From a virus, in IMG/VR virus record IMGVR_UViG_3300042445_000512, positions 1 through 31,937 of that record: a stretch of DNA of 31,937 nucleotides. One strand, written 5' to 3'. The notes under the pieces are model-generated. The model was given only the letters and a program-made list of their open reading frames with translations. It was not told the DNA's origin and did no database searches. The position numbers and the translations under genes are program-made. Shown here piece after piece: positions 5,658 to 25,452 of the stretch (the stretch's first letter is position 1; each line of letters begins with the position of its first letter).

Positions 5658-6626
5658 ATGGCGCGAAGAGGATTTTTAGACTATGTGCTGGGTGGGGCCG
5701 TTGGTGGGCTAGAAGGGTTAGCCCAGAAGCGGGCGGCGGACGAGGAGAAGGCGCGCATGGCAACTGCGCTGGCACGGCAGGTCCGTATGGATGCGATGGA
5801 GATGGAAGACCGGGCAACGGCAAAGGAAGACCGCGCACAGGCGCAGAAAGACCGTTCCCAAAACCAGCGCCAGCGTTTGCTTGCAGGCGGGTATTTGCCA
5901 ACTGGCAGAGATATGCCGGGGGCTACCCCTCGCCAGCCTGTCAGCACAGAGATGGTAGACGGGCAGGAGTTTGGCTTGTACTCAACGCCACGACAGCTTG
6001 CGCTACAAGCGGCTATGGAAGATGCCGAACTGAAGGCAAGGTTCAACCCTGATACGATGACGCCCTATCAAGTCGGGCAGTCTGCACGGGATGAGCGCCG
6101 TGTGAGGCTGGCAGAACGGAACAGCGCGAGAGACAATACCGATAAGGCAAAATCAGCAGGCATTAGCAAAATCATTGGTGGCGCTGGCAAGATTGTCGAG
6201 GCGTCTCGCAACGAAGAAAAGACGGCGCAGGCGCAGCTTGATAAACTTGATCGTTCTAGGCCCGACGTAAGTCGGTGGGCGGGGACACAAGCAGACTTTG
6301 ACAAGGCTAACGCTGCATGGCAAACAAAGGTCGATGCGGCTGAGAAGCGGCTTGAAGCAGCGCAGGGAAAAACAGGACGGCTATCTCCGACGTACGAGCG
6401 TTCTCTTGTCTCCAGTGATACCACGGGGTATGGGGAGGCGTTTGGGCCTCCTGACCCAGCGCCTCCCGTAAGACCGTCAACGCGCAGCTTTGATCTGTTC
6501 TCGCCTGCTTCTGGTGGGGCAGGGAAAGAGAAGATGCGCGAAGACCTGTGGGATTCCATTAAATTGCAGAACCCCACGCTATCTGACAGTGCCATAACCG
6601 CTCGGGTGAAAAAGGAGATTCCGTAA
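5658..6626 (+). CDS. Helical virion-associated protein (322 aa)
   Basis: The start is preceded by CGGAGAGAAG. The N-terminus (RGFLDYVLGGAVGGLEGLAQ) is a short hydrophobic glycine-zipper-like segment. A long charged coiled coil follows at about residues 22-72, rich in Arg, Glu, Asp and Gln with many ED and KDR pairs, and a second helical block lies at about 130-245. The final 70 residues are Pro/Ser-rich and then helical. Similar layouts occur in internal or tail-tube-associated phage proteins, but no named domain was recognised. It is joined to the next gene by TAATG. The placement inside the internal-protein cluster supports a virion role. Confidence 0.7.
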   Translation: MARRGFLDYVLGGAVGGLEGLAQKRAADEEKARMATALARQVRMDAMEMEDRATAKEDRAQAQKDRSQNQRQRLLAGGYLPTGRDMPGATPRQPVSTEMVDGQEFGLYSTPRQLALQAAMEDAELKARFNPDTMTPYQVGQSARDERRVRLAERNSARDNTDKAKSAGISKIIGGAGKIVEASRNEEKTAQAQLDKLDRSRPDVSRWAGTQADFDKANAAWQTKVDAAEKRLEAAQGKTGRLSPTYERSLVSSDTTGYGEAFGPPDPAPPVRPSTRSFDLFSPASGGAGKEKMREDLWDSIKLQNPTLSDSAITARVKKEIP

Positions 6627-9600
6627 TGGGCAACCCGTTTAGGCCGACATCTGCAAGCAACCCAAACAACCCGCTTAACCCAAAGCCGCAGGGCAACCCG
6701 TTCCGCACTCGCGTTGCCCCCACGCCCAAGGTCACAGATACGGCTGGGTACCCGTCAAAGGCTTTCTCTCCGCTGAAGATCGGCGCTCCGTCGTTTCAGC
6801 AGTTTGCTGATGCGGGAGCGGAGCTTCCTGCTGCGGTAACGCCGCTACCCAAGAAGAAGTACGACACGGCCTTTGCTGAAGACATCTTGCAGCGGCGGGC
6901 AAAAGCGCAGCCTGCTCAGCCGCAAACGTCCTACGCGACGAGCGACATTGTTGGTCGCCTTGCCAGAACAACCAAGGCAGAGGCCAACCGTCCAGTAGAA
7001 CAGTTCCAGCAACAGGTGCTTGATGTCCTGAAGGCTCCGTTGTATGCCGCCCGTCAAGCGGTCCCTGCCGTGAGTGGCATGGCTGCGCCGTTCGTCGAAG
7101 GGGCATACAACCTCCTTGGACGCCCTGACATCGCGGAGTTTACGCGAAAGACTCAACAGGACATTGAGCAGTCCTTTGCTCCGCAGTCAGCGGGTGAGGA
7201 AGTCATTGGCGGTGGGATGCGGATAGCGGGTGCCCTTGCGCCGTACATGGCCGCAGGATCACTACGGGCACCTATTGCTGCCAGTGCAGCACTAACGGGC
7301 ATACAGTCAAAAGCCAAGGGCGGTTCGTTTGTTGAGTTCCTTGGCAACTATTTAGACAGTGATGTGATAAACCGCATTGCAGCGTCCAAGTACAAGGTGC
7401 CTGCGGATATGGTGTTGGATGCTACGCTGGGCCTGACCTTTGGATCGCTTGACAATACTGTCAACGCTTTCAAGGCTCCGGGCAAGGCGCGGGCTGCATT
7501 GCGAGCGCAGGGCGCTGAGCCGTTTGTGCAGATGAGCAGCTTGATCCGCGAAGGAATCCAGAGCGGGGCGTTGGACGCCAAGGCTGCTAACCCGTACCTA
7601 AAAGCGGCTGACAAGTTTGCACAACAGGCAAAAGTAAGAGCGAGCCTCCCGCTGAGTGGAGCGGGGGCAAGGGCTGTTGATGTTGTTGCGGGGCTGGGTT
7701 CCAGCGCCACACAGTTTGGCAAGAACGTCGCCAGCAATGTCAGCAACGAAGCCAAGCTGTTGGGTAGCGTTGGCAGCAAGCTGGCTGAAGAAGCCACTCT
7801 GCGGGGAGCGCGAGTTTCTGTCCCACGGGAGGCAATGGAAGGAGACTTCAACAGCAGCCTCCGTCGTGCTGTTGAGTCTGGGGATGACGCAGAGATAGAG
7901 CGGCTGCTCACGACGCAGGACGAGATGCTGTCCAAGGCGCAGGAAAGAATTGACTACCGCGTAAAGGGTGCAGATGACCCCGTGGCAAATCAGTTCATTG
8001 CTATGCGGAACAAAAGCACACGCCCCGGCTTCCTCTCTCCTCTTGCTCCAGAAGAACTTGTTGACAAGAGAGTAACACTCAAGCACAATGGGACGGTCGG
8101 GTTTGCATTAACGCCAGATGGCGATATGCAGAACCTGTTTAACAACGGTGGGCCAAAAGGCGCGGCAAGAGAGGTTGTTTTTGACGGCATTCGCTCTGGC
8201 GGGAAAACGCTTGACGCTTTCTCTGGGTACTTAACAGACCTCTACCGACAGTACGGGTTTGTTGAGACTGGGCGACTCAAGTTTAACGATGAGTTTGCTC
8301 CTGCTGGGTGGGACGTAGACGTAGATGGTCGCCCCGATGTGGTGTTTATGGCCTATCGTGGTGGCGAGCCAGAAGATGTTGTACGAGCGCGTGTCTTCAA
8401 CCCGAACCTTTGGATTCCCGAAGGCCCACCTTCTCAATACTTCGATGACTATGATGCCGCCGCTAACGCCAACAAATCAGCAGCAAGCACCTTTCAACAG
8501 TCAAGAACAACTGGTCAAAACATTGGAGCGGATGCGGGGACGCCCCTTGACGCCGCAGGAGCAGTCGTTCGCACTGCGGGAAGCGGAGGCGTTGGGCGAG
8601 CTTTAGGGGCGGTAGGGTCTGTTCTCCCACGCACCCCCGCTGGGCAAAACATTGGCTCTGCTGCACTAGGCGCTGCATTTGGCGCAACCGCAGATAAAGA
8701 AGACCGACTCCGGGGGGCTGGTGCTGGGGCGCTGGTGGGCCTTGCAGCATCTCGCGGTGGTGGGATTGGCCTGTCAACTCGCGTAGTTGACGATGCCGTA
8801 GAAGCTCCGTTTAAGGCGTTTAGCGCAGGGTTGCGAGCCATTGGCAACGCAGCGCAGGATCGTGGCGATGCGGGCTATTGGCTTGGGGTGTTGGCAAAAG
8901 GCACCCGCAAGGCTGAAATAGACGACACGCGCATTGGCGAGTGGTTGGCCCAGCAGAAGGGCACAATTACAAGAGCTAACGTGTCAGCGGCCTTGCGCGA
9001 ACGGTTGCCAGTGTTGGGGTCGGCGGATCGCGGGTACAAGGTGCCGACGCCAACAGACCAAGCACCTCTTCCCCGTGATAGCTATTCCACATATGCCATC
9101 CCCGGCGCAAAGACGAACTACTCGGAGTTGGTGACAACGGCAAAGCCCGTGCAAGAAGGAGAGGTGTTTGTCCTTCGTGATGGCGTGACATCAGACGTTA
9201 TCTCACGCCACTCCACACGGGGAGAAGCGGAAGCTGCTGCGCTTGCCGCACAAGCAGAGGGGCGTCAGGTGTATGGGCAGTCTATTGCAGCACCAGACGC
9301 CGATGTATACCGCCACAGCCATTGGTCCGGTGTTGACAACCCAATCGTACACACCCGCGTAGACGAGCGAGTCGTGAACGGCGAGCGGGTCTTGGTGATT
9401 AACGAGTCGCAAAGCGATGTACACCAAGAAGGACGGAAGAAAGGGTATAAGACGCCAGAGGCAAAGAAGGCTTACGCTCAGGGTGAAGTGTTACTTGACG
9501 AACTGCGCAACCAAGGCAACGAGGCGAGGCGGGTTGCTGAGCGTGAGAAAAACCGCGTCGTATCAGAAATTTTATCAACTGACCCAACATACAGAAACTT

Positions 9601-12600
9601 GTTAAGGCAAGGGACTGAGTTGGAGACCGTAAAGTACAGGCGGGTAAACGAGCTACTCGACAAGCTCCCGCCCGAAACGTCCAGCGAGGCTCGGATAGAA
9701 GCGCGGAAGGCTGCGACTAATACTTTTAAGGAAACACCGGAAGGGGTAACCTTAGAGGAGCAAATTGATTTTGCGAGAGAAGGTCGAATGGATCGTATGG
9801 ATGAGATTGGCAGAAGCGTTAAAGCAATGCCAAACATCAAAGCCCTTTATGAGGAAGAATTCAGAATCGCTCAGGAGATTAGGGCGCTGCGTCAAAGGCC
9901 GAACCCGCAGTACGCAGTCCCCGACCTTCCTTTCAAGAAGACTCCGCAATGGACGGAGTTGAACTTAAAGCGCATACTTGAAGAAGCTGTCAAGCGTGGT
10001 GCGGAACGGGTAGTGCTGCCGCTGGGCAAACAGGCAGCGGATATGTTCTCGCTGCGAACGGTGGCAGATCGGTTGGATTGGAACGTGGACCCGGACGGAA
10101 GCACTGGCTCTTTGACTGTGTACAGAAACGGGCAAGAGGTGAGGCGCGAAGTCTTTATAGCACCCGAAGAACTCCCCGGAATGGTTGGCGCTGATGTTTC
10201 CGCACGTTTGATTGCCGATGGCCGTCTTGAAGGAGACGCCCTTGATGTTGGCGCACAGGGTATGACGGGCTACTACGAAGGCATCGTCCCAAAGACGGTT
10301 AAGGATTACGGAAAGAAACTCGGCGTCAAGATTGAAGTAGAGAAGGTGGGGCAAGGCGACAACGGCGGCATATCTCAGAGCGAGTACGACGAGGCTGTCT
10401 CACTCGGGTTGGCAAGAATGGCAGCAATCACGGACGAGCGTGTTGCTGCGCGCAACGCGATTGATTTACGCACCATGACTCCGCTAGAGTTTAACAGAGT
10501 CATTCGGGACATTGACACTCGCCTCAACGCTCAAAACGAAGAATTAAAATCTTTTGTTGCGGCCCGTGCAAAACGCCAAGAACAGGATCGGTTTGCCAAT
10601 AACCTCTCTTTCCGTATCACCCCAGAACTCAAGGCAGCGGTAGAGGCAGGACAGCCGTTGTACAGCGTGGGTACGGCTGGTGCATTGGCGCTTGGCGATG
10701 ACGAAGATAGCACCAACACGCAGCTTGGTATCCTTGGGGCACTGGCCCTTGGTGCAGCCACGCGAGGGGCTAAGGGTCAACTCCCTAAAGCCATCTCTAA
10801 GATTGCCCTTGGCGGGCTTGGCTACGGCCTCAGTCAGTCAGAAGACGAGAGACTTCAGGGGACAGGCAACGCCCTGATGGGGTTTGCTGCATACTCTCTG
10901 GTGCATGGCAAGGTCAAGCAGGGAGCCAAGTACACGGGGTCAAAGATTGCTGAAGAACTTGCCAAGTCTTCGGCTGGCCGCAAAACGCTTGATGAGATCA
11001 GCCTCGACATCCGCACCGATCCGCGCATCAAAGAAGTTGTAGAAGCGGTTGCTTTGCGGGACAGGGCAAAGATAGAAGCCACTGGCCGTGAGCTTGCGTC
11101 TGAAGCGCAGAAGCGTGGTCCTGTGTTTGAGCGGGTTGTGTCTGACATCCTTGATAAGGAGACGGTAGAAGCTGGCACGTTGTCTGCTGAAGACACGGCG
11201 CTTGCCGTGGCGTTTGCTCAGAAGATTGCTGACAACACACTTGGCCTACAGAAAGTAGGCGCTGGGCTTATCTCGGCTGACACCTATGCCAAGCGTGGGG
11301 CTGAATTCCTCCCTCGCCGCTATGCCAAGTACGAAGCTGGCGATGTCAACGATGTTGTTGTTCAGCACAAAGGCAAGACGTTCCGTATCGGTGGCGAGAA
11401 GATCAGAAACGACCTCCTGACCCGTGAGGAGCGGGATGCCCTTGGGGAAATCCGAGAGGTGTCCTATCGCATTGCCGATTACTTCGGGCGAGGGGCGCGG
11501 GACATTACTACGGCGCATTTGTTTCAAGCGTTAGCGGACATCCCCGGCGTCATCAACCCTGAGTATGTCAGCGCCGTTCGTGAGGCGGCTATTGGGGCTG
11601 ACTTGGCAAAGGTGGCACGGACGCCGACCAGAGGGTCTCGCGGCTCGCCAACTGCTGCCAGAGACGCGCTTCTTGCGGCTAATGCAGCCAAGGCCCGTGC
11701 CAAAGCATTGAGCGAACAGTTCAGGCGACCGGGGCAGGAGTACGTCACGTTGCCTGACACGCCGCAGCTTGGTGTGTTGCGGGGCGCTGTGGTACGGAAG
11801 GATGCGGCAGACTATTTGAACGACTTGCCTGACTTTAGATCGACGGTCAACAACTACGACAAGTTGTTGAAGTACTGGAAGACCATCAAGACGGTATTCA
11901 ATCCGTCTACGCACGTTTCCAACTTTGTTGCCAATATGCCACAGGCAATAATGGCCGGGTTGCCCTTCCAAGAATTCCCCATCGCTCTGCCCCGTGCAGT
12001 AAAAGACATTAAAGAGTATGGCCCCACCACGCGCTTCCTTGCAGAAGCGGGTGTGCTTGACCGTGCTTCCCCTACCTATGGGGATGTCCCGATGAAGGGG
12101 GTGGATCAGGATAAGACGGTGCTTCGTAGCATGATGAAGACCACGCGCCCAGAGACACGGGCTGCGCTGGAAGCACAGGGCTTGAAGCCGATGGGCACGG
12201 CAGAAGAAATGGCGCGGAAATTTGGCAGGGGAGTAGGGAGACTCTACTCAACAGGGGACGCAATCTTCCGTGTGGCGTTGTTCCAAAAGCTCACAAAGAA
12301 CGGGATGGGGCAAGAAGAGGCATTGGCAAAAGTGGTGGAGGCGTTCCCCGGCTACGATAGTCGGTCGCCGCTTATCAAAAAGGTAAAGTTCTTAAGCCCG
12401 TTTGTGATGTACCCCGTCAAGTACATCCCCCCGTTGTTGGACATGATTGCAGAAAACCCGTGGCGGTGGGCGCTGGTGGCGTCAACGTGGGCGGCAGTTG
12501 ACCAAGCAAGTCGTCGCAAGGCTGGCCCTGTCAACGAGATGGACTTGCCACCGAACCGCAGGTTTAGCAAGGCTGGGTATCTCCTCCCCGGATTGATTCA

Positions 12601-13225
12601 GGGAGAAGCCCTTGGCCTGAAGTCAGACCAAGTAGGGGAGCGCAAGATGATTGACATTGCGCGGTTTACGCCCCTTACCGCGTTGACTGGCTCAACCTCG
12701 CCGGGGAGTCCGATGTCTGCGGTGAGCGAAAACATCCCCGGCATCTTTCAGCCCAGCGGCCCGGCGCTTGATTTGGCAGCAATGGCAAAGGTAAATGCCG
12801 ATCCGTTCTCTGGCAGGCCGTTCATCAAACCGGGGGATGAGGGACTTGACATCCTCAAGAAGTTTACGGTTGGCTCTGTTTCAGGTGGGCGGTTTACACC
12901 CGGCTTTGCAGCAAACTTGGCGCTCCCAACAGTCCTCTCCTATCAAATCCCCAATGTTCTCAAAGACTTGTATTACGGGAACATCAACGATGCAAAGACC
13001 GATGCGCTTGGGCTAGTTGGGTTGCGCCCTGTTACTATTAAAGCTGGGCAGCAAGCGCAGTATGCGTTGGATGCGCGGGATCGAAAGATTGGCGATGTCA
13101 ACTCAACGCTTGACAAGGACTTGAAGGTTGCCAAAGACGTACTGGTTCGGAGAAAGCTCATCAACAAAGCGATGGAAAAACGTGCTCGCATCAATGCTGG
13201 GTATGTTAAATCACGCCAACGGTAG
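6626..13225 (+). CDS. Giant polyvalent internal virion protein (2199 aa)
   Basis: This is one uninterrupted frame of 6.6 kb. Residues about 478-585 read like a GNAT-type acyltransferase-like domain, with VGFALTPDGDMQNLF, then LDAFSGYLTDLYRQYGFVETG, then PDVVFMAY. Residues about 895-1240 contain the conserved block found in many large polyvalent phage proteins: HW near 898, NESQSDVHQEGRKKGY at about 926-942, VPDLPFKK near 1098 and GMTGYYEGIVPKTVKDYGKK at about 1212-1231. Glycine-zipper hydrophobic segments occur at about 195-230, 645-700 and 1348-1440. The C-terminal third has NPSTHVSNFVANMPQAIMAG (about 1758-1777) and a hydrophobic SPFVMYPVKYIPPLLDMIAE segment (about 1925-1945). Such proteins are usually packaged in the head and ejected, and may protect or modify DNA or cross the envelope. 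Enzyme activity is not shown here. Confidence 0.85.
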   Translation: MGNPFRPTSASNPNNPLNPKPQGNPFRTRVAPTPKVTDTAGYPSKAFSPLKIGAPSFQQFADAGAELPAAVTPLPKKKYDTAFAEDILQRRAKAQPAQPQTSYATSDIVGRLARTTKAEANRPVEQFQQQVLDVLKAPLYAARQAVPAVSGMAAPFVEGAYNLLGRPDIAEFTRKTQQDIEQSFAPQSAGEEVIGGGMRIAGALAPYMAAGSLRAPIAASAALTGIQSKAKGGSFVEFLGNYLDSDVINRIAASKYKVPADMVLDATLGLTFGSLDNTVNAFKAPGKARAALRAQGAEPFVQMSSLIREGIQSGALDAKAANPYLKAADKFAQQAKVRASLPLSGAGARAVDVVAGLGSSATQFGKNVASNVSNEAKLLGSVGSKLAEEATLRGARVSVPREAMEGDFNSSLRRAVESGDDAEIERLLTTQDEMLSKAQERIDYRVKGADDPVANQFIAMRNKSTRPGFLSPLAPEELVDKRVTLKHNGTVGFALTPDGDMQNLFNNGGPKGAAREVVFDGIRSGGKTLDAFSGYLTDLYRQYGFVETGRLKFNDEFAPAGWDVDVDGRPDVVFMAYRGGEPEDVVRARVFNPNLWIPEGPPSQYFDDYDAAANANKSAASTFQQSRTTGQNIGADAGTPLDAAGAVVRTAGSGGVGRALGAVGSVLPRTPAGQNIGSAALGAAFGATADKEDRLRGAGAGALVGLAASRGGGIGLSTRVVDDAVEAPFKAFSAGLRAIGNAAQDRGDAGYWLGVLAKGTRKAEIDDTRIGEWLAQQKGTITRANVSAALRERLPVLGSADRGYKVPTPTDQAPLPRDSYSTYAIPGAKTNYSELVTTAKPVQEGEVFVLRDGVTSDVISRHSTRGEAEAAALAAQAEGRQVYGQSIAAPDADVYRHSHWSGVDNPIVHTRVDERVVNGERVLVINESQSDVHQEGRKKGYKTPEAKKAYAQGEVLLDELRNQGNEARRVAEREKNRVVSEILSTDPTYRNLLRQGTELETVKYRRVNELLDKLPPETSSEARIEARKAATNTFKETPEGVTLEEQIDFAREGRMDRMDEIGRSVKAMPNIKALYEEEFRIAQEIRALRQRPNPQYAVPDLPFKKTPQWTELNLKRILEEAVKRGAERVVLPLGKQAADMFSLRTVADRLDWNVDPDGSTGSLTVYRNGQEVRREVFIAPEELPGMVGADVSARLIADGRLEGDALDVGAQGMTGYYEGIVPKTVKDYGKKLGVKIEVEKVGQGDNGGISQSEYDEAVSLGLARMAAITDERVAARNAIDLRTMTPLEFNRVIRDIDTRLNAQNEELKSFVAARAKRQEQDRFANNLSFRITPELKAAVEAGQPLYSVGTAGALALGDDEDSTNTQLGILGALALGAATRGAKGQLPKAISKIALGGLGYGLSQSEDERLQGTGNALMGFAAYSLVHGKVKQGAKYTGSKIAEELAKSSAGRKTLDEISLDIRTDPRIKEVVEAVALRDRAKIEATGRELASEAQKRGPVFERVVSDILDKETVEAGTLSAEDTALAVAFAQKIADNTLGLQKVGAGLISADTYAKRGAEFLPRRYAKYEAGDVNDVVVQHKGKTFRIGGEKIRNDLLTREERDALGEIREVSYRIADYFGRGARDITTAHLFQALADIPGVINPEYVSAVREAAIGADLAKVARTPTRGSRGSPTAARDALLAANAAKARAKALSEQFRRPGQEYVTLPDTPQLGVLRGAVVRKDAADYLNDLPDFRSTVNNYDKLLKYWKTIKTVFNPSTHVSNFVANMPQAIMAGLPFQEFPIALPRAVKDIKEYGPTTRFLAEAGVLDRASPTYGDVPMKGVDQDKTVLRSMMKTTRPETRAALEAQGLKPMGTAEEMARKFGRGVGRLYSTGDAIFRVALFQKLTKNGMGQEEALAKVVEAFPGYDSRSPLIKKVKFLSPFVMYPVKYIPPLLDMIAENPWRWALVASTWAAVDQASRRKAGPVNEMDLPPNRRFSKAGYLLPGLIQGEALGLKSDQVGERKMIDIARFTPLTALTGSTSPGSPMSAVSENIPGIFQPSGPALDLAAMAKVNADPFSGRPFIKPGDEGLDILKKFTVGSVSGGRFTPGFAANLALPTVLSYQIPNVLKDLYYGNINDAKTDALGLVGLRPVTIKAGQQAQYALDARDRKIGDVNSTLDKDLKVAKDVLVRRKLINKAMEKRARINAGYVKSRQR

Positions 13226-20534: not shown

Positions 20535-20570
20535 AAGCCCCCCGACACGCGAGTGTCAGGGGGTTTCTGT
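20535..20570. terminator. Bidirectional terminator between convergent operons
   Basis: CCCCCCGACAC and GTGTCAGGGGG form a hairpin with one mismatch and a GCGA loop. On the plus strand TTTCTGTTT follows; on the minus strand CTTTTTGTTTTA follows, which is a better uridine tract. It lies between the end of the plus-strand replication operon and the end of the minus-strand operon. Confidence 0.85.
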
Positions 20571-20654: not shown

Positions 20655-20756
20655 CTACATCCCCATTCCCTCTGCCACACCAACGGCGAGCCAGAGGAAG
20701 AGGAGGAGGAGGGGAGCCAGTGCAGGGTGGCGGTCGAGGAAGGAGGGGCGGTTCAT
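20655..20756 (-). CDS. Possible tiny membrane peptide (33 aa)
   Basis: A short minus-strand frame begins 12 bases beyond the stop of the 72-residue gene. The product starts MNRPSFLDRHPALAPLLLLF and continues as LWLAVGVAEGMGM, a single hydrophobic span. No good ribosome binding site precedes it, so expression would depend on coupling to the gene upstream. The GC-rich CTC/CTG codons could also make such a stretch by chance. Confidence 0.35.
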   Translation of the reverse strand: MNRPSFLDRHPALAPLLLLFLWLAVGVAEGMGM

Positions 20757-20767
20757 CGGGGAGTGTC

Positions 20768-20986
20768 TCAGCGTGAAGTGTTTTGCCATGCCGTGAGGAC
20801 CACGGCGCGGGACCGAACATCTACGACCGAAATGTCCGTAAGTTCGGGGCGATTTTGTAAGGCCACATAGGCTACCTCCCGTGCGAAGTCAAGCGAGCGG
20901 AACGCATGGCCGTCGAGGATGCCATCGGCGAGAGACTCCATGTCTTCGGCGATGTAGTGTCCGGTGTTGGCCTTGAGTTGGTACAT
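20768..20986 (-). CDS. Small hypothetical protein (72 aa) in the minus-strand operon
   Basis: The product starts MYQLKANTGHYIAEDMESLA and continues with LDFAREVAYVALQNRPELTDISVVDVRSR. It looks like a compact alpha/beta protein, with a helix around residues 30-45 and a final strand. The start lies two bases after the stop of the gene upstream, as expected in one transcript. No family is recognised. The gene follows the AAA+/VWA pair, but a shared function is only suggested by position. Confidence 0.65.
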   Translation of the reverse strand: MYQLKANTGHYIAEDMESLADGILDGHAFRSLDFAREVAYVALQNRPELTDISVVDVRSRAVVLTAWQNTSR

Positions 20987-20988
20987 GG

Positions 20989-21180
20989 TCAGTTCTCCAG
21001 AGCGGTGAGAGCGGTGAGATACTCGGCGGCTTCTGCACGGCCAGCCTTTGTGGTTTTCTTTGCCATCGTGGCACGGTAACGCAGCGTCTCAGTGACAAAC
21101 TCTGCGAGGTCATACGGCAGACGGTGAACGATGTCGGCGGGGATGGTGTGCAGTTCCCAGCGAGCGGGGCGGCGGGGCAT
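20989..21180 (-). CDS. Small hypothetical protein (63 aa) in the minus-strand operon
   Basis: The ATG at 21180 is preferred because GGAGG lies eight to nine bases upstream; a TTG at 21186 would add two residues. The product starts MPRRPARWELHTIPADIVHR and then has PYDLAEFVTETLRYRATMAKKTTKAGRAE, which is strongly helical and basic in the middle. It is not recognised. The upstream gene ends two bases before the chosen ATG. Confidence 0.65.
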   Translation of the reverse strand: MPRRPARWELHTIPADIVHRLPYDLAEFVTETLRYRATMAKKTTKAGRAEAAEYLTALTALEN

Positions 21181-21182
21181 GG

Positions 21183-21347
21183 TCAAAACCCTCCGGTGAA
21201 AACGACATGGACGATGTGGGTGGCGTTGCCCGTGATGTCGGTGGCGTTCGCCGTGAAGGCGACACCTTCACGAACGAGAGCGGCGAGCATCTGAGCGGTA
21301 GCGGTGCGCTGCTCTTCGGTGCGAGCGGGAAGCGTGAGCGTGGACAT
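21183..21347 (-). CDS. Small hypothetical protein (54 aa) in the minus-strand operon
   Basis: The frame is open further upstream, but the ATG at 21347 is chosen because ACCGGAGAACACATC provides a ribosome binding site at the right distance. The product begins MSTLTLPARTEEQRTATAQM and ends in a beta-like segment, NATHIVHVVFTGGF. It is separated from the VWA gene by 55 bases without a terminator, so it is in the same transcript. No function is visible. Confidence 0.6.
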   Translation of the reverse strand: MSTLTLPARTEEQRTATAQMLAALVREGVAFTANATDITGNATHIVHVVFTGGF

Positions 21348-21402
21348 GATGTGTTCTCCGGTGTCGGTGGTGGGGGCGACGGTGTGCCGCCCCCGTTGGT
21401 GA

Positions 21403-22992
21403 CTACTTCTCTGCGATTCGGTTGGCAGTGTAGGCGATGATCTTGTTTGCCAAGTCAAGTCCAGTCGAGCCGATGATCGACCGCCCGAAGTGTTCTTTCA
21501 TGTCCTTGGTCCTACCTTCCCGCCATCCCGTGCTGGCCGTTGTCGGCAGCACCAGCGCACCGATCAAGTCCACACCCCGCGCTCTCCACATTCCCGCATC
21601 GACCGAGCCATCGGTCAGCATCCCATCGGTGTAGACGATGACCACATCGGCGGCGATCAAAATATCTTTGAGTGCGTCGAGTGTGACAGCTATGCTCTCT
21701 GATTCCTTGTTCGCTTCCAGTGCCGAGATCATCGTGTCCGGTGCAGTCGGCGGCAGGTAAGCGTGTTCGCCTTGTCCAGTCAGCCACACTGAGCCAGTGA
21801 TGTCACCGTTGCGGAGGAGGCGAGCCATTGCTGCCAACATCGTGCGACCGTGTTCGTTGAAGTCGCCGCCCATTGACCCGCTCATGTCCATGACCATGAC
21901 AAGAGAGGGAGCCGTGCCCGTGTCGCCGCTGGTGGTGAAGGGGCGGTCGTTGCCGCTGGCTGCGTTGCCAATGTGCAACCGAGAGCCGTTGTTGGACTGT
22001 TGCTGATCGTTCTGATTTGAGCCAGCGATCAGCGTCTCACCGAGCCGTGCCGCCAACTTGTCAGCGGCTGGCTTGTCCACCGCGATGGGCGAGCGGTATC
22101 CGCTGACAAACGTAGTCCATGATGTCTGCTTGGTCGTCGTTGTCGGCGTCCCAACGGGGCTGATCTCTTCGCCTTGATCGTTGATGGCAACACCGTGATC
22201 CCGTTCGGCTGACGGGGCATCGGGGCGGTCCACTATCGGGCCAGACCCCTTGGCTGATCCATCCGAGTCCTCACCGATGTCATCGTGGATGTGGCCCTTG
22301 TCGGTCAAGTCTTCCGGTGCCGTCGTCGCCTCTTCGCCCCAGTGCTTCGCCCATTCAATCGCCAACTCAACAACCGCCCATGAATCGGGAGCGGCAACAA
22401 CTCGGTCATAAAAACTTTCCACCGCTTCCCGCTCCGGTGCCGTGCCGCCAGTCCAGTTCTGCCCGTAGTAGTGGGCACCGCCCGACATCTTCGCATTGAG
22501 AAGAGCATGGAGTGGTGACGTAGCGAATTTCTTGGTGATCCATGAACCCCATTCAAAGCTGTCTCCCTCAACCGCTATCGCCTTCGCTTCGATGCGGCAA
22601 TCTTCCATGACGTTGAACACGGCGAACGGGGCGTTGCCAGCACGACACGCCTTGGCAAGTGCGTTGACATCCCGCACCGTCACCAGTCCATGCCACCGTT
22701 CGTGCCGCAACACAGTTGCCGCAAACTTCGCCGCCCGTTTGTCGTTGCCTTTCATCGTGACGGCTTTGACTACGTCGATCTGTGTGTGAAAGCGGTCACC
22801 GAGTCGGACGAAGTGGGTGTCGGCATCGAAGCGCCAGTCGCCAGTCGGTCCACCAGCCAACACCGTGCCGTCCACCGCCATGCCCGTCATCGTGCCAAGC
22901 ATTGTCAGTTGCCCAGTCTTGCGGGTCGCTGACTTCATGGCGCGCTTTGCCAGCCGTTCGCCCGTCGAGAGAAACGTGATTGTGTGTGCCAT
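21403..22992 (-). CDS. HExxH metallopeptidase-like protein with C-terminal VWA domain
   Basis: The 529-residue protein joins two domains. Residues about 85-140 contain HERWH (97-101) followed by NVMEDCRIE (127-135), the arrangement of a gluzincin-like zinc site in which the later E or D completes the centre. A polar, low-complexity linker spans about 225-360. The C-terminal von Willebrand A domain has VMVMDMSGSMGG, giving a complete MIDAS start (D369, S371, S373), and VYTDGMLTDG near D456. Proteins of this design, including CobT-like ones, act with MoxR/CobS-type AAA+ ATPases; one is encoded immediately upstream with a one-base overlap (TAATG). The substrate is unknown. Confidence 0.85.
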   Translation of the reverse strand: MAHTITFLSTGERLAKRAMKSATRKTGQLTMLGTMTGMAVDGTVLAGGPTGDWRFDADTHFVRLGDRFHTQIDVVKAVTMKGNDKRAAKFAATVLRHERWHGLVTVRDVNALAKACRAGNAPFAVFNVMEDCRIEAKAIAVEGDSFEWGSWITKKFATSPLHALLNAKMSGGAHYYGQNWTGGTAPEREAVESFYDRVVAAPDSWAVVELAIEWAKHWGEEATTAPEDLTDKGHIHDDIGEDSDGSAKGSGPIVDRPDAPSAERDHGVAINDQGEEISPVGTPTTTTKQTSWTTFVSGYRSPIAVDKPAADKLAARLGETLIAGSNQNDQQQSNNGSRLHIGNAASGNDRPFTTSGDTGTAPSLVMVMDMSGSMGGDFNEHGRTMLAAMARLLRNGDITGSVWLTGQGEHAYLPPTAPDTMISALEANKESESIAVTLDALKDILIAADVVIVYTDGMLTDGSVDAGMWRARGVDLIGALVLPTTASTGWREGRTKDMKEHFGRSIIGSTGLDLANKIIAYTANRIAEK

Positions 22993-24485
22993 TATTTGAC
23001 TCCGAGAGAGAGGCGAACGAGGGAAACGGCGGTGAAGGAAGCGGGATCAGTTTCGCCACTGTCCACACCCCATGCCGCACACCGATCCGCAACGGTGGCG
23101 GCAATGTGCTGGCACACGGCGTCGGCAGTCACGGCACCACGGCGAGACACGAACTCAGCGGCGTTCTCCAGTGCCCGAAAGCTCAGGGGATATTTCAGCG
23201 AGCCATCGGCAACGGCGGCACGGGACGTTACCACGGCGGCGGTGAAGCGGGTTGCCAAGACATCGGGATCAGTGACGGCGTAGTGGGCGGCGAATGACAA
23301 CGTGGTCGCCTTCACCGAGTCCGCATCGAACGGCAAGCGGTGGTGTTCCCAGCGGTCCCAGAACGCTTGATCCGGTGACTTGGCACCAAGGTTGGTGGCG
23401 GCTGCCAAGTGCAGGTTAGCGGCGAGACATTCGATGACTTCCAGCGAGCCATCGGCCATGACACGGCGAGTGCGGAGGCGGTACACCTTCCCTCTTGGCG
23501 TCTTGACTCCGGTCAAGAAGGTCAAGAGCCAGTCCATCGGGCGCTTGCCGAGCCGAAACACTTCGTCCAGCAAGAGGAGGACCGTCTTGCCTTCCGATGC
23601 CGCCCGAACGGCTTGCGTCAGTACTCCGTCGAACACCACGAACCCGCCTTTGCCGTCCGGTGCAGCCGAGCCAAGCAACGTGCTGATTTCGTCGATGTCA
23701 TCGGTGCAGCCATGCTCCATGTAGCTGTCGTAGCTGGTGCCCAACTGGCGAAAGGCAAACGTCTTGCCGATAGACGGCGGGGCGGCGAGACAGATCAGCG
23801 ACGGCGTTGGAAGGCCAGCTTGGTAATAATTCGCCAAGAAATCCACGATGGGGTTCTTGGAAGCGGCAGCGGCGACCATGACTTTGCCTCTGACAATCGG
23901 ATCAGACTTCATCCGAGCGAGGATGTCCATGACGGGCTGCATGGCTTCCCGAAATGGGTCTAGCTGGTCCTTCACGGCTCGCTTCAAGGCTTCTTCGTCC
24001 ATCGGAGCGGCACCACCACCGATCAGCTTGCGGATGGCATCAAGAGCGGCATCGGCATCGGTGGCAACCGGAGCGGGAGCGGCAACGGGAGCGGGAGCGG
24101 GAGCGGCTGACTTGCCAGCTTTGAGCGAGTCGTTTTCGCCAATCATCGGCGGGGCACCACGGCTGGTCACGAAGTTGGCAGCATGGAGACCCGTGAATAT
24201 GGCAGAGACGATGGTGCCGCGAGACTCCCAGAGAAACAGCGCGTCAACGTGGTAGTCGTCAATCATGGCGGTCACAATCCCCCAGACACCGGAGTGAATC
24301 GGGGTGTCGTGTGCCGCCTTGTACGGCACGACGGCGGCGGGGTTGCCCTTCCAGCCAGCGGTGGCGGCATCGGCTCCACTAGATGGGAGGATTCCGTAGG
24401 CTCCGAGGAAGTCAGCTTTGAGACGGCGACCGACATAGAACGTCTTGGTGTCGGTGTACTTTTCCAACGAAAGCGGCTTTGGCAT
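22992..24485 (-). CDS. MoxR/CobS-type AAA+ ATPase
   Basis: The protein has 497 residues. The AAA+ core lies at about 210-400, with Walker A APPSIGKT (235-242), Walker B VLLLLDEVFR around D307-E308, sensor-1 asparagine N365 in LAAATNLG, and a likely arginine finger R378 in FWDRWEHH. The N-terminal ~115 residues are a separate domain (it begins MPKPLSLEKYTDTKTFYVGR), followed by an Ala/Pro linker and a helical stretch. Such ATPases remodel a partner through a VWA protein; that partner is the next gene. AAGGAAAAGATC precedes the start. It heads the only minus-strand operon and has a long structured leader. Cobalamin synthesis is not implied. Confidence 0.88.
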   Translation of the reverse strand: MPKPLSLEKYTDTKTFYVGRRLKADFLGAYGILPSSGADAATAGWKGNPAAVVPYKAAHDTPIHSGVWGIVTAMIDDYHVDALFLWESRGTIVSAIFTGLHAANFVTSRGAPPMIGENDSLKAGKSAAPAPAPVAAPAPVATDADAALDAIRKLIGGGAAPMDEEALKRAVKDQLDPFREAMQPVMDILARMKSDPIVRGKVMVAAAASKNPIVDFLANYYQAGLPTPSLICLAAPPSIGKTFAFRQLGTSYDSYMEHGCTDDIDEISTLLGSAAPDGKGGFVVFDGVLTQAVRAASEGKTVLLLLDEVFRLGKRPMDWLLTFLTGVKTPRGKVYRLRTRRVMADGSLEVIECLAANLHLAAATNLGAKSPDQAFWDRWEHHRLPFDADSVKATTLSFAAHYAVTDPDVLATRFTAAVVTSRAAVADGSLKYPLSFRALENAAEFVSRRGAVTADAVCQHIAATVADRCAAWGVDSGETDPASFTAVSLVRLSLGVK

Positions 24486-24514
24486 GATCTTTTCCTTGGC
24501 GGGAATGTGGGGTT

Positions 24515-24643
24515 CTGACTGTCCTCGTCAGTCGCCGCACAACGGCGAGAGGGCAGCGGGATTGCTGCCTTTCGGACTCGTTCGCTCTGTGTCAGAGAGT
24601 GAACGGCACCGGACGCCGTAGGGGTTAGTTCCGAGTTTTCGGA
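24515..24643. repeat. Cluster of tandem hairpins in the leader of the minus-strand operon
   Basis: Successive inverted repeats are CTGAC/GTCAG (24515-24531), TCGCCG/CGGCGA (24532-24548), GGCAGC/GCTGCC (24552-24569), CGTTCGCTCT/AGAGTGAACG (24579-24605, ten pairs with one G-T), ACGGC/GCCGT (about 24603-24619) and CCGA/TCGG (24631-24642). The fourth is the longest and has a seven-base loop. None is followed by a clear uridine tract on either strand, so they do not look like ordinary terminators. Confidence 0.75.
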
Positions 24644-24856
24644 AGTCCGGTGGTGCTTGGCAGTTGTCAAAGAGCCGTTGCCGTCATCGTGTCCAACGAT
24701 CTCACCAAGCGGTCACACTTGGTACGGTCGGTGTTGCGGTCGGTGGCTTCGGAAGCGCCTCACGGCGTGTCGTTTCATCCACACTTTCCATCGGTGCCGT
24801 TCGGAGACGCCATCATCGGCGTGTCAGTTCAGTGGCAACCGCAACAACTGAGGATA

Positions 24857-24884
24857 AGTCTAAACGGTTGACAAGCACCGTCAA
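24857..24884 (-). promoter_or_regulatory. Weak minus-strand promoter candidate for the AAA+/VWA operon
   Basis: On the minus strand TTGACG (24884-24879), a 16-base spacer and TAGACT (24862-24857) resemble a sigma70 promoter. It would give a leader of about 370 bases that includes the hairpin cluster. The match is moderate and other starts are possible. Confidence 0.3.
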
Positions 24885-24915
24885 GGGTTCTGCGAAAGAT
24901 TGTCAAAAGTATTTT

Positions 24916-24940
24916 TAAGTCGCTGTGTGGCAACGACTTA
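24916..24940. promoter_or_regulatory. Perfect dyad TAAGTCG/CGACTTA (operator-like)
   Basis: TAAGTCG (24916-24922) and CGACTTA (24934-24940) are exact reverse complements separated by 11 bases, next to an AT-rich AGTATTTTTAAGT tract. It has no uridine tract on the output side of either strand, so an operator or replication element fits better than a terminator. Confidence 0.5.
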
Positions 24941-25078
24941 GATCAAAGGCTTGGCAAGATACCGAGGGGAGGCATCACAAATATGCTCTCGGGCTTTCTG
25001 GGCTTTGACAGCATTTGATTGAATTTGCGGCACATATAGAACGAGGGGCTTTGACTTGCCAAACGTGGTCAACGTGGT

Positions 25079-25129
25079 GGCGGGCAAACGGGCGGGAAGT
25101 GGCGGGAAGGTGGCGGGATGTTTGCGGGA
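25079..25129 (+). repeat. Helically phased GGCGGGA repeats
   Basis: GGCGGGC/GGCGGGA copies begin at 25079, 25091, 25101 and 25112, and a partial GCGGGA follows at 25124. Steps are 12, 10 and 11 bp and then about 11-12 bp, close to one helical turn, so all copies would face the same side of the DNA. This is an iteron-like arrangement of possible protein-binding sites. Confidence 0.6.
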
Positions 25130-25193
25130 TGCTTGCACACCTTGGCGCTGTCGGTGTCACGTTGCCCCGTGCGTGTTCTATTGACTCGCCCCG

Positions 25194-25311
25194 TTGACAA
25201 GGCAACCCGCTGGCAAGTGGAGCGGCACGGGGCCGAGAGACGTGGCGGCGGGTTGACGTTTGACACGGCAAACGATGGGCGGGCGGCGTTTGACAGTGGC
25301 AAAGCGGCAAA
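25194..25311 (+). repeat. Iteron-like TTTGACA-N-GGCAAA repeats
   Basis: TTGACA-A-GGCAA (25194-25205), TTTGACA-C-GGCAAA (25259-25272) and TTTGACA-GT-GGCAAA (25289-25303), with a further GGCAAA at 25306, form a family of composite repeats. Related TTTGACA copies lie at 25004-25010 and, on the minus strand, at 24665-24671 and 24901-24907. No well-placed -10 elements accompany them. Confidence 0.55.
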
Positions 25312-25452
25312 GCCGGGCATAGATCGCGCGTTCTTTTGCCAGCCGCGAGCCACCCGCGACCCCCCCCTACCCCCGCCGACGACGGCCCGCCTATAGCCAC
25401 CACCATCACTCGGTCAGATGACGCTTGGTACAAGTCAACAAGACACTTGCCG

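Follow-up and report, generated by a model that had tools for sequence, protein, structure and literature searches.

Known AAA+/VWA pairs and the pair of the window

MoxR-type AAA+ ATPases acting with von Willebrand factor A (VWA) proteins are widespread machines of which few targets are known. In the group 2.2 jumbo phages the VWA protein of the MoxR-vWA pair carries an N-terminal metallopeptidase domain (Iyer 2021, PMC7824862), and in phage N4 (Schitoviridae) the gp24-gp25 pair consists of an AAA+ gene followed by a gene whose product has both an HELWH site and a VWA-like domain. The mechanism of NorQD, including iron insertion, has been described (PMC13036017), as have type II hammerhead ribozymes and the occurrence of hammerheads in phages and prophages (Perreault 2011, PMC3088659). 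Here we describe a gene pair of the peptidase-VWA and MoxR architecture in the IMG/VR virus record IMGVR_UViG_3300042445_000512, analysed over its whole stretch of 31,937 nucleotides (nt), which is referred to as the window. This tailed-phage contig of 32 kb has a minus-strand operon in which an AAA+ gene is followed by the gene of a partner with an HExxH site and a VWA domain (Table 1). Judged by its sequence the pair is a divergent member of an already known architecture; the new part of the finding is a leader hammerhead, the core of which had been missed by the first-pass annotation of this stretch. The best explanation of the module, to which we assign a probability of about 0.5, is that it encodes an ATP-driven remodelling machine which contains a zinc-peptidase site, behind a leader that is cut by the hammerhead.

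The N4 protein gp25 matches the Pfam 'Putative metallopeptidase domain' plus the DUF2201 VWA-like domain (PF13203+PF09967) at an E-value of 3e-87, whereas the window partner has no such match; DUF2201 was matched in Pfam neither by the window partner nor by the 29 aligned members of its family, and the profile comparison of gp25 with the window partner gave a probability of 1.5. Unlike the window, the fetched stretch of N4 contained no hammerhead according to the scans used. The group 2.2 jumbo-phage pair is likened to that of the 32-kb window by its authors' description alone. NorQ and NorD share the AAA+ and VWA folds with the window pair, the NorD match covering the VWA region only. The halovirus HVTV-1 encodes a VWA protein which, like that of the window, lies near an AAA gene and has an HExxH site with a downstream acidic motif (HECGH...NAAEDGAIE), but the profile match between the two is confined to the VWA domain (probability 28). 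The VWA protein of P74-26 was considered as a further equivalent and rejected, as no HExxH was seen in its sequence.

Conserved residues and predicted folds of the two proteins

The relatives used for comparison were about 40 uncultured viral contigs (records are designated by L numbers) obtained with pattern-based scans, in which absence is no proof. The AAA+ protein has an N-terminal beta-rich domain, a Walker A motif PPSIGKT (K241) and a Walker B motif LLLLDE (D307-E308); N365 (a sensor-1 candidate), R378 and R437 were also noted, and all six residues were kept in the 30 members aligned. Its predicted model (mean predicted local distance difference test score, pLDDT, 81) matched NorQ with an E-value of 2.9e-11, and the top 17 PDB matches were NorQ or CbbQ chains. 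Pfam AAA_5 was detected in 21 of the 30 family members and not in the window protein itself, which gave sub-threshold matches to AAA and AAA_16 only and a match to PHROG 16448 'ATPase' at an E-value of 8e-5. The folds and the AAA_5 matches agree with the MoxR-type phage ATPase proposed in the first-pass annotation. No confident named family was obtained for either window protein in Pfam, PHROGs or PADLOC. The NCBIfam profile search comprised the AAA+ set only, and CobT (TIGR01651) had no NCBIfam match in the window record.

The partner combines an N-terminal HExxH domain (H97-E98-R-W-H101, with E130 within NVMEDCRIE as candidate third ligand), a low-confidence linker in the predicted model (residues ~245-340) and a C-terminal VWA domain with the metal ion-dependent adhesion site (MIDAS) residues D369, S371, S373, T405 and D456. 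The minus-strand pair thus exists as described in the first-pass annotation, with the HERWH site, K241 and D369 at the positions given there. Among 29 full-length partners, aligned at identities down to ~17-25%, H97, E98, H101, E130, D131 and E135 were kept in 28 and N127 in all, so that the HERWH site, whose lack of conservation formed part of the refuting condition in the first-pass annotation, is retained as HExxH in all members but one. The MIDAS residues D369, S371, S373 and D456 were kept in 29 of 29, and position 405 was occupied by T in 17 partners and by S in the other 12. HExxH and NxxEDxRIE were also retained where peptidase and VWA are encoded by separate genes (L061, L062). For both proteins this degree of conservation, as read from the alignments, lies far beyond chance. 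That the pair is a degenerate remnant is extremely improbable considering the intact open reading frames (ORFs) and the invariant catalytic residues across wide divergence, even though the L004 partner is split at the domain boundary by a frame change (TGA-C-ATG, L004:3472-3478), either an error or a true split.

In the predicted model of the partner (mean pLDDT 75) the helices 80-104 and 123-142, which bear HExxH and NxxED, are of high confidence. In gluzincins, HExxH and the downstream Glu motif likewise lie on two helices. The VWA domain matched midasin and NorD, and matches over most of the length, with low template modelling (TM) scores, were to modelled phage proteins that carry the names VWFA or CobT. 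From motifs and helices we infer that the N-terminal domain is zincin-like and may bind zinc and cleave protein. The MIDAS-VWA domain and the peptidase-like site proposed in the first-pass annotation were thus both recovered; the site in the VWA partner had been overstated as new, being known from the jumbo phages (PMC7824862) and N4 gp25. The earlier observation is confirmed and its interpretation partly supported.

The nearest folds of the AAA+ protein, NorQ and CbbQ, would also suit a chelatase-like or metal-insertion chaperone, in which the HExxH motif holds or delivers a metal or serves as a docking fold and nothing is cut; NorQD inserts iron (PMC13036017), and the viral fold matches include the proteins named CobT. 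We regard this as unlikely, as 28 of 29 partners keep the catalytic glutamate E98 along with the histidines and metal delivery alone would not obviously need this glutamate.

The structured leader and its hammerhead core

Upstream of the AAA+ gene a conserved structured RNA was identified in four phages. Its alignment contained 7 pairs changed on both sides, compared to 0-1 in slid controls, with 95.8% of cells paired (n = 4; the sequences are mutually related and the structure was drawn from the same four). The model R1 built from these phages found a fifth copy in L021 with an E-value of 1.2e-5. Between the window and L004, positions 24507-25440 were 76% identical.

The 3' part of the leader contains GAAA, an NUH site, CUGANGA and stems I-III in type II order, according to a strict scan in which one bulged stem III base was allowed; the open stem II, the GAAA and CUGANGA core and the NUH site are shared with described type II hammerheads (PMC3088659; Rfam RF02276). 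The core was first recognised by eye after the fold had been seen, and the scan rules were then chosen by the same analyst. The strict scan returned it in the window and in contigs 5662, 44675, 115 (two), 37961, 25881, 25641, 25816 and 25632 (last digits of sample numbers), in each case upstream of the AAA+ gene and on the same strand, compared to none in 4.8 million strand-bases of first-order Markov sequences; the relaxed scan gave one match in 1.6 million. The predicted cleavage site, between 24549 and 24548, lies 63 nt upstream of the ATG of the AAA+ gene; this distance, which recurs in distant relatives, was found in 5662, 25881, 25641, 25816 and 25632. We infer from this core that the leader ends in a self-cutting hammerhead with ribozyme activity.

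The L004 copy has an extra U after CUGAUGA, the core motifs of L021 (at the operon head and before another gene) were seen by eye and not listed by the scans, and L041, L049 and L055 have CUGAUGA without a proper stem II. The L044 copy matched RF02276 (Hammerhead_II) with an E-value of 0.001 and 29.3 bits, under the gathering score of 37. In L044:1-850, three CUGA(U/C)GA elements with GAAA nearby lie at -816, -421 and -52 from the AAA+ gene, two of which pass the relaxed scan. No type I or III hammerhead was found near the pair by the scan; one type III hammerhead-like match was seen in the halovirus HVTV-1 (L069:11013). A loop I-tail pseudoknot as in Perreault was considered, for which a UGUG/CACA pairing is possible by eye in the window; no equivalent was seen in L015 or L016 and it is not claimed.

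The genes neighbouring hammerheads were termed 'not constant' in PMC3088659, the text of which does not contain MoxR, ATPase or von Willebrand, and a literature search, with most subscription papers outside its reach, returned no paper naming both 'hammerhead ribozyme' and 'MoxR'. IMG/VR was scanned using a pattern derived from a distant clade of the family, which matched at least 120 stretches. Among the matches listed, 138 of 148 sites were followed, within 400 nt, by the start of an ORF of 50 amino acids (aa) or more. When these ORFs were clustered by BLAST, the largest cluster (17 members among the matches listed) was a second AAA+ family, unrelated in sequence to that of the window; of its scanned members L086 and L154 show AAA_5 (L154 just below the cut-off), and L157 and L105, with a deviating Walker A, joined through BLAST. 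A second cluster (6 sites among the matches listed) was the window's own family, favoured by the origin of the pattern. Downstream of the second-family AAA+ gene an ORF with HExxH and VWA, recognised by motif only, was present in six contigs (L086, L090, L116, L131, L146, L183), two of which (L090 and L183) resemble near-duplicates. The intervening ORF was DUF3150-like at sub-threshold scores in L086, L116 and L131 and without match in L090. In L154 a DUF3150-like ORF, also sub-threshold, comes after the AAA+ gene, and in L157 the HExxH and VWA ORF lies ~3 kb further on. No such ORF was seen in L076 and L115, and several other contigs end early.

Among ORFs of at least 100 aa at the hammerhead loci listed, 20 of 24 AAA+ genes and 51 of 1145 others lay near a hammerhead (Fisher p 2.5e-22; 15 of 18 for the second AAA+ family alone, p 2.9e-17), p-values that are not to be taken at face value because the loci were picked for a hammerhead and the AAA+ class was chosen after the clusters had been seen, and that are further weakened by non-independent relatives and crude gene calls. 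The apparent association merits a proper census and no more. As two sequence-unrelated AAA+ families each lie behind a hammerhead, how much of an ATP-driven phage protease is made, or when, may depend on leader self-cleavage; a recurrent role of type II hammerheads in controlling phage AAA+/HExxH-VWA operons is put forward tentatively, as a possibility on the doubtful side. If true, the link would provide a concrete gene context for phage ribozymes of obscure role.

Proposed mechanism, gene order and other features

The following model combines what was computed, namely the gene pair, its synteny, the conservation of catalytic and MIDAS residues, the covariation of the RNA and the hammerhead core. 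The operon, which is read in the direction leading away from the packaging genes, would encode a MoxR-class AAA+ hexamer and a zincin-domain VWA partner. By analogy with NorQD, the AAA+ ring would receive the VWA domain, the MIDAS of which would hold on to an acidic residue in the target. Hydrolysis of ATP would displace the VWA domain relative to the N-terminal domain via the flexible linker, and the target would be strained and offered to the zinc site for cutting. Self-cleavage of the leader would give the operon mRNA its own 5'-OH end. A peptidase-like site inside a VWA partner would allow a direct test of whether MoxR-VWA machines can be ATP-driven proteases, for which N4 offers a comparable pair.

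Wherever both genes were in view the AAA+ gene directly preceded the partner gene. The large terminase, where found near the pair, was upstream on the opposite strand and pointing away (20 fetched records and the window, no exception), and in many records the large terminase and, where reached, the portal adjoin the pair. Such neighbours would fit a chaperone-protease of virion assembly that reshapes and trims a structural complex of the phage, as proposed for the jumbo phages by Iyer et al. (PMC7824862) with an Acidianus virus tail precedent cited therein. We consider this possible but less than likely: the pair is opposite to the packaging genes, in distant clades it shares its strand with primase/helicase or (contig 3300007541) DNA polymerase, and the comparable AAA+/VWA pairs of N4 and P74-26 sit among non-structural genes. 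Because of this co-directionality in distant relatives we lean towards an intracellular target in early or mid infection. The separate control and the near-early position in distant clades could also belong to a host-takeover or counter-defence module, which would put a defence or regulatory complex of the host out of action, and MoxR-vWA systems occur in host-side conflict systems (PMC7159879); as neither window protein matched the PADLOC defence families, we find this quite improbable.

Several observations weigh against the ATP-driven protease with a self-cut leader. The L065 partner, the sole exception among 29, has neither HExxH nor the ED of NxxED, and solved metallopeptidases are absent from the fold matches shown for the partner. 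Rfam gave no report for the window hammerhead, RF02276 included. Hammerheads were not seen in ~18 family records, about half of the relatives, and the element is for that reason not essential to the module. Finally, the window's own clade has the primase on the strand opposite the AAA+ gene, and there the pair is not co-directional with replication genes.

The window sequences, as far as the searches reach, lie outside named families. Searches of named phages with the proteins of the window and of its relatives (tblastn) gave no match, and cellular genomes gave none with the AAA+ profile; one distant AAA+ and VWA pair was found in a contig of a Sulfurimonadaceae metagenome-assembled genome (L070:7671-10539).

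Table 1. Features of the minus-strand operon and its borders in the window.
Feature	Size	Position	Strand	Evidence
AAA+ ATPase, MoxR/NorQ/CbbQ class	497 aa	22992..24485	-	ORF, conservation, fold match
HExxH-VWA partner	529 aa	21403..22992	-	ORF, conservation, predicted model, fold matches
Conserved structured RNA leader, seven helices	172 nt	24511..24682	-	covariation in four phages
Type II hammerhead core (predicted)		24521..24577	-	GUCC-GAAA-stem III-CUC^-stem I-CUGACGA-GGAC
Sigma-70-like promoter candidate, 5' of leader		24857..24884	-	9/12 consensus positions
Small ORF	54 aa	21183..21347	-	ORF only; no match in relatives (tblastn)
Small ORF	~64 aa	20989..21183	-	81% identity in relative L004 (tblastn)
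Small ORF	72 aa	20768..20986	-	ORF only; no match in relatives (tblastn)
Small ORF	44 aa	20655..20789	-	70-75% identity over 32-34 aa in L004, L016; short L015 match (tblastn)
Terminator-like hairpin	11 pairs + T-rich tail	20538..20563	-	pattern scan

The stop of the AAA+ gene and the start of the partner gene share one base (22992). The neighbours that could be annotated, namely the genes for small and large terminase, portal, primase/helicase, RusA, endolysin and exonuclease, all have plus-strand orientation, and the ATG of the AAA+ gene and that of the small terminase are 1039 nt apart. The hairpin, the longest stem among 3 sites found by the terminator scan (4.9 expected), is the likely end of the operon, and the promoter candidate is weak (2 sites, 1.1 expected). 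Own strand, promoter-like site, structured leader and hairpin together bear out the separately controlled module of the first-pass annotation. Of the small downstream genes mentioned there, the 64-aa and 44-aa ORFs are supported by matches in relatives and the 54-aa and 72-aa ORFs are not. The leader ORFs gave patchy matches only when searched as coding genes in relatives (tblastn).

Elsewhere in the window, a 2199-aa ORF (6626-13225) had one PHROG match of unknown function and one weak match to endolysin. Short transfer-messenger RNA (tmRNA) matches above the Rfam gathering score, ~66 nt each, were found on the AAA+ strand in L043:4679-4744, L044:5026-5090, L046:3486-3550, L047:4468-4534, L048:8684-8750, L049:10005-10071 and L051:7208-7274. 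They correspond to the tRNA-like ends, 18-19 nt replacing the middle 326 model positions, and are possibly tmRNA mimics.

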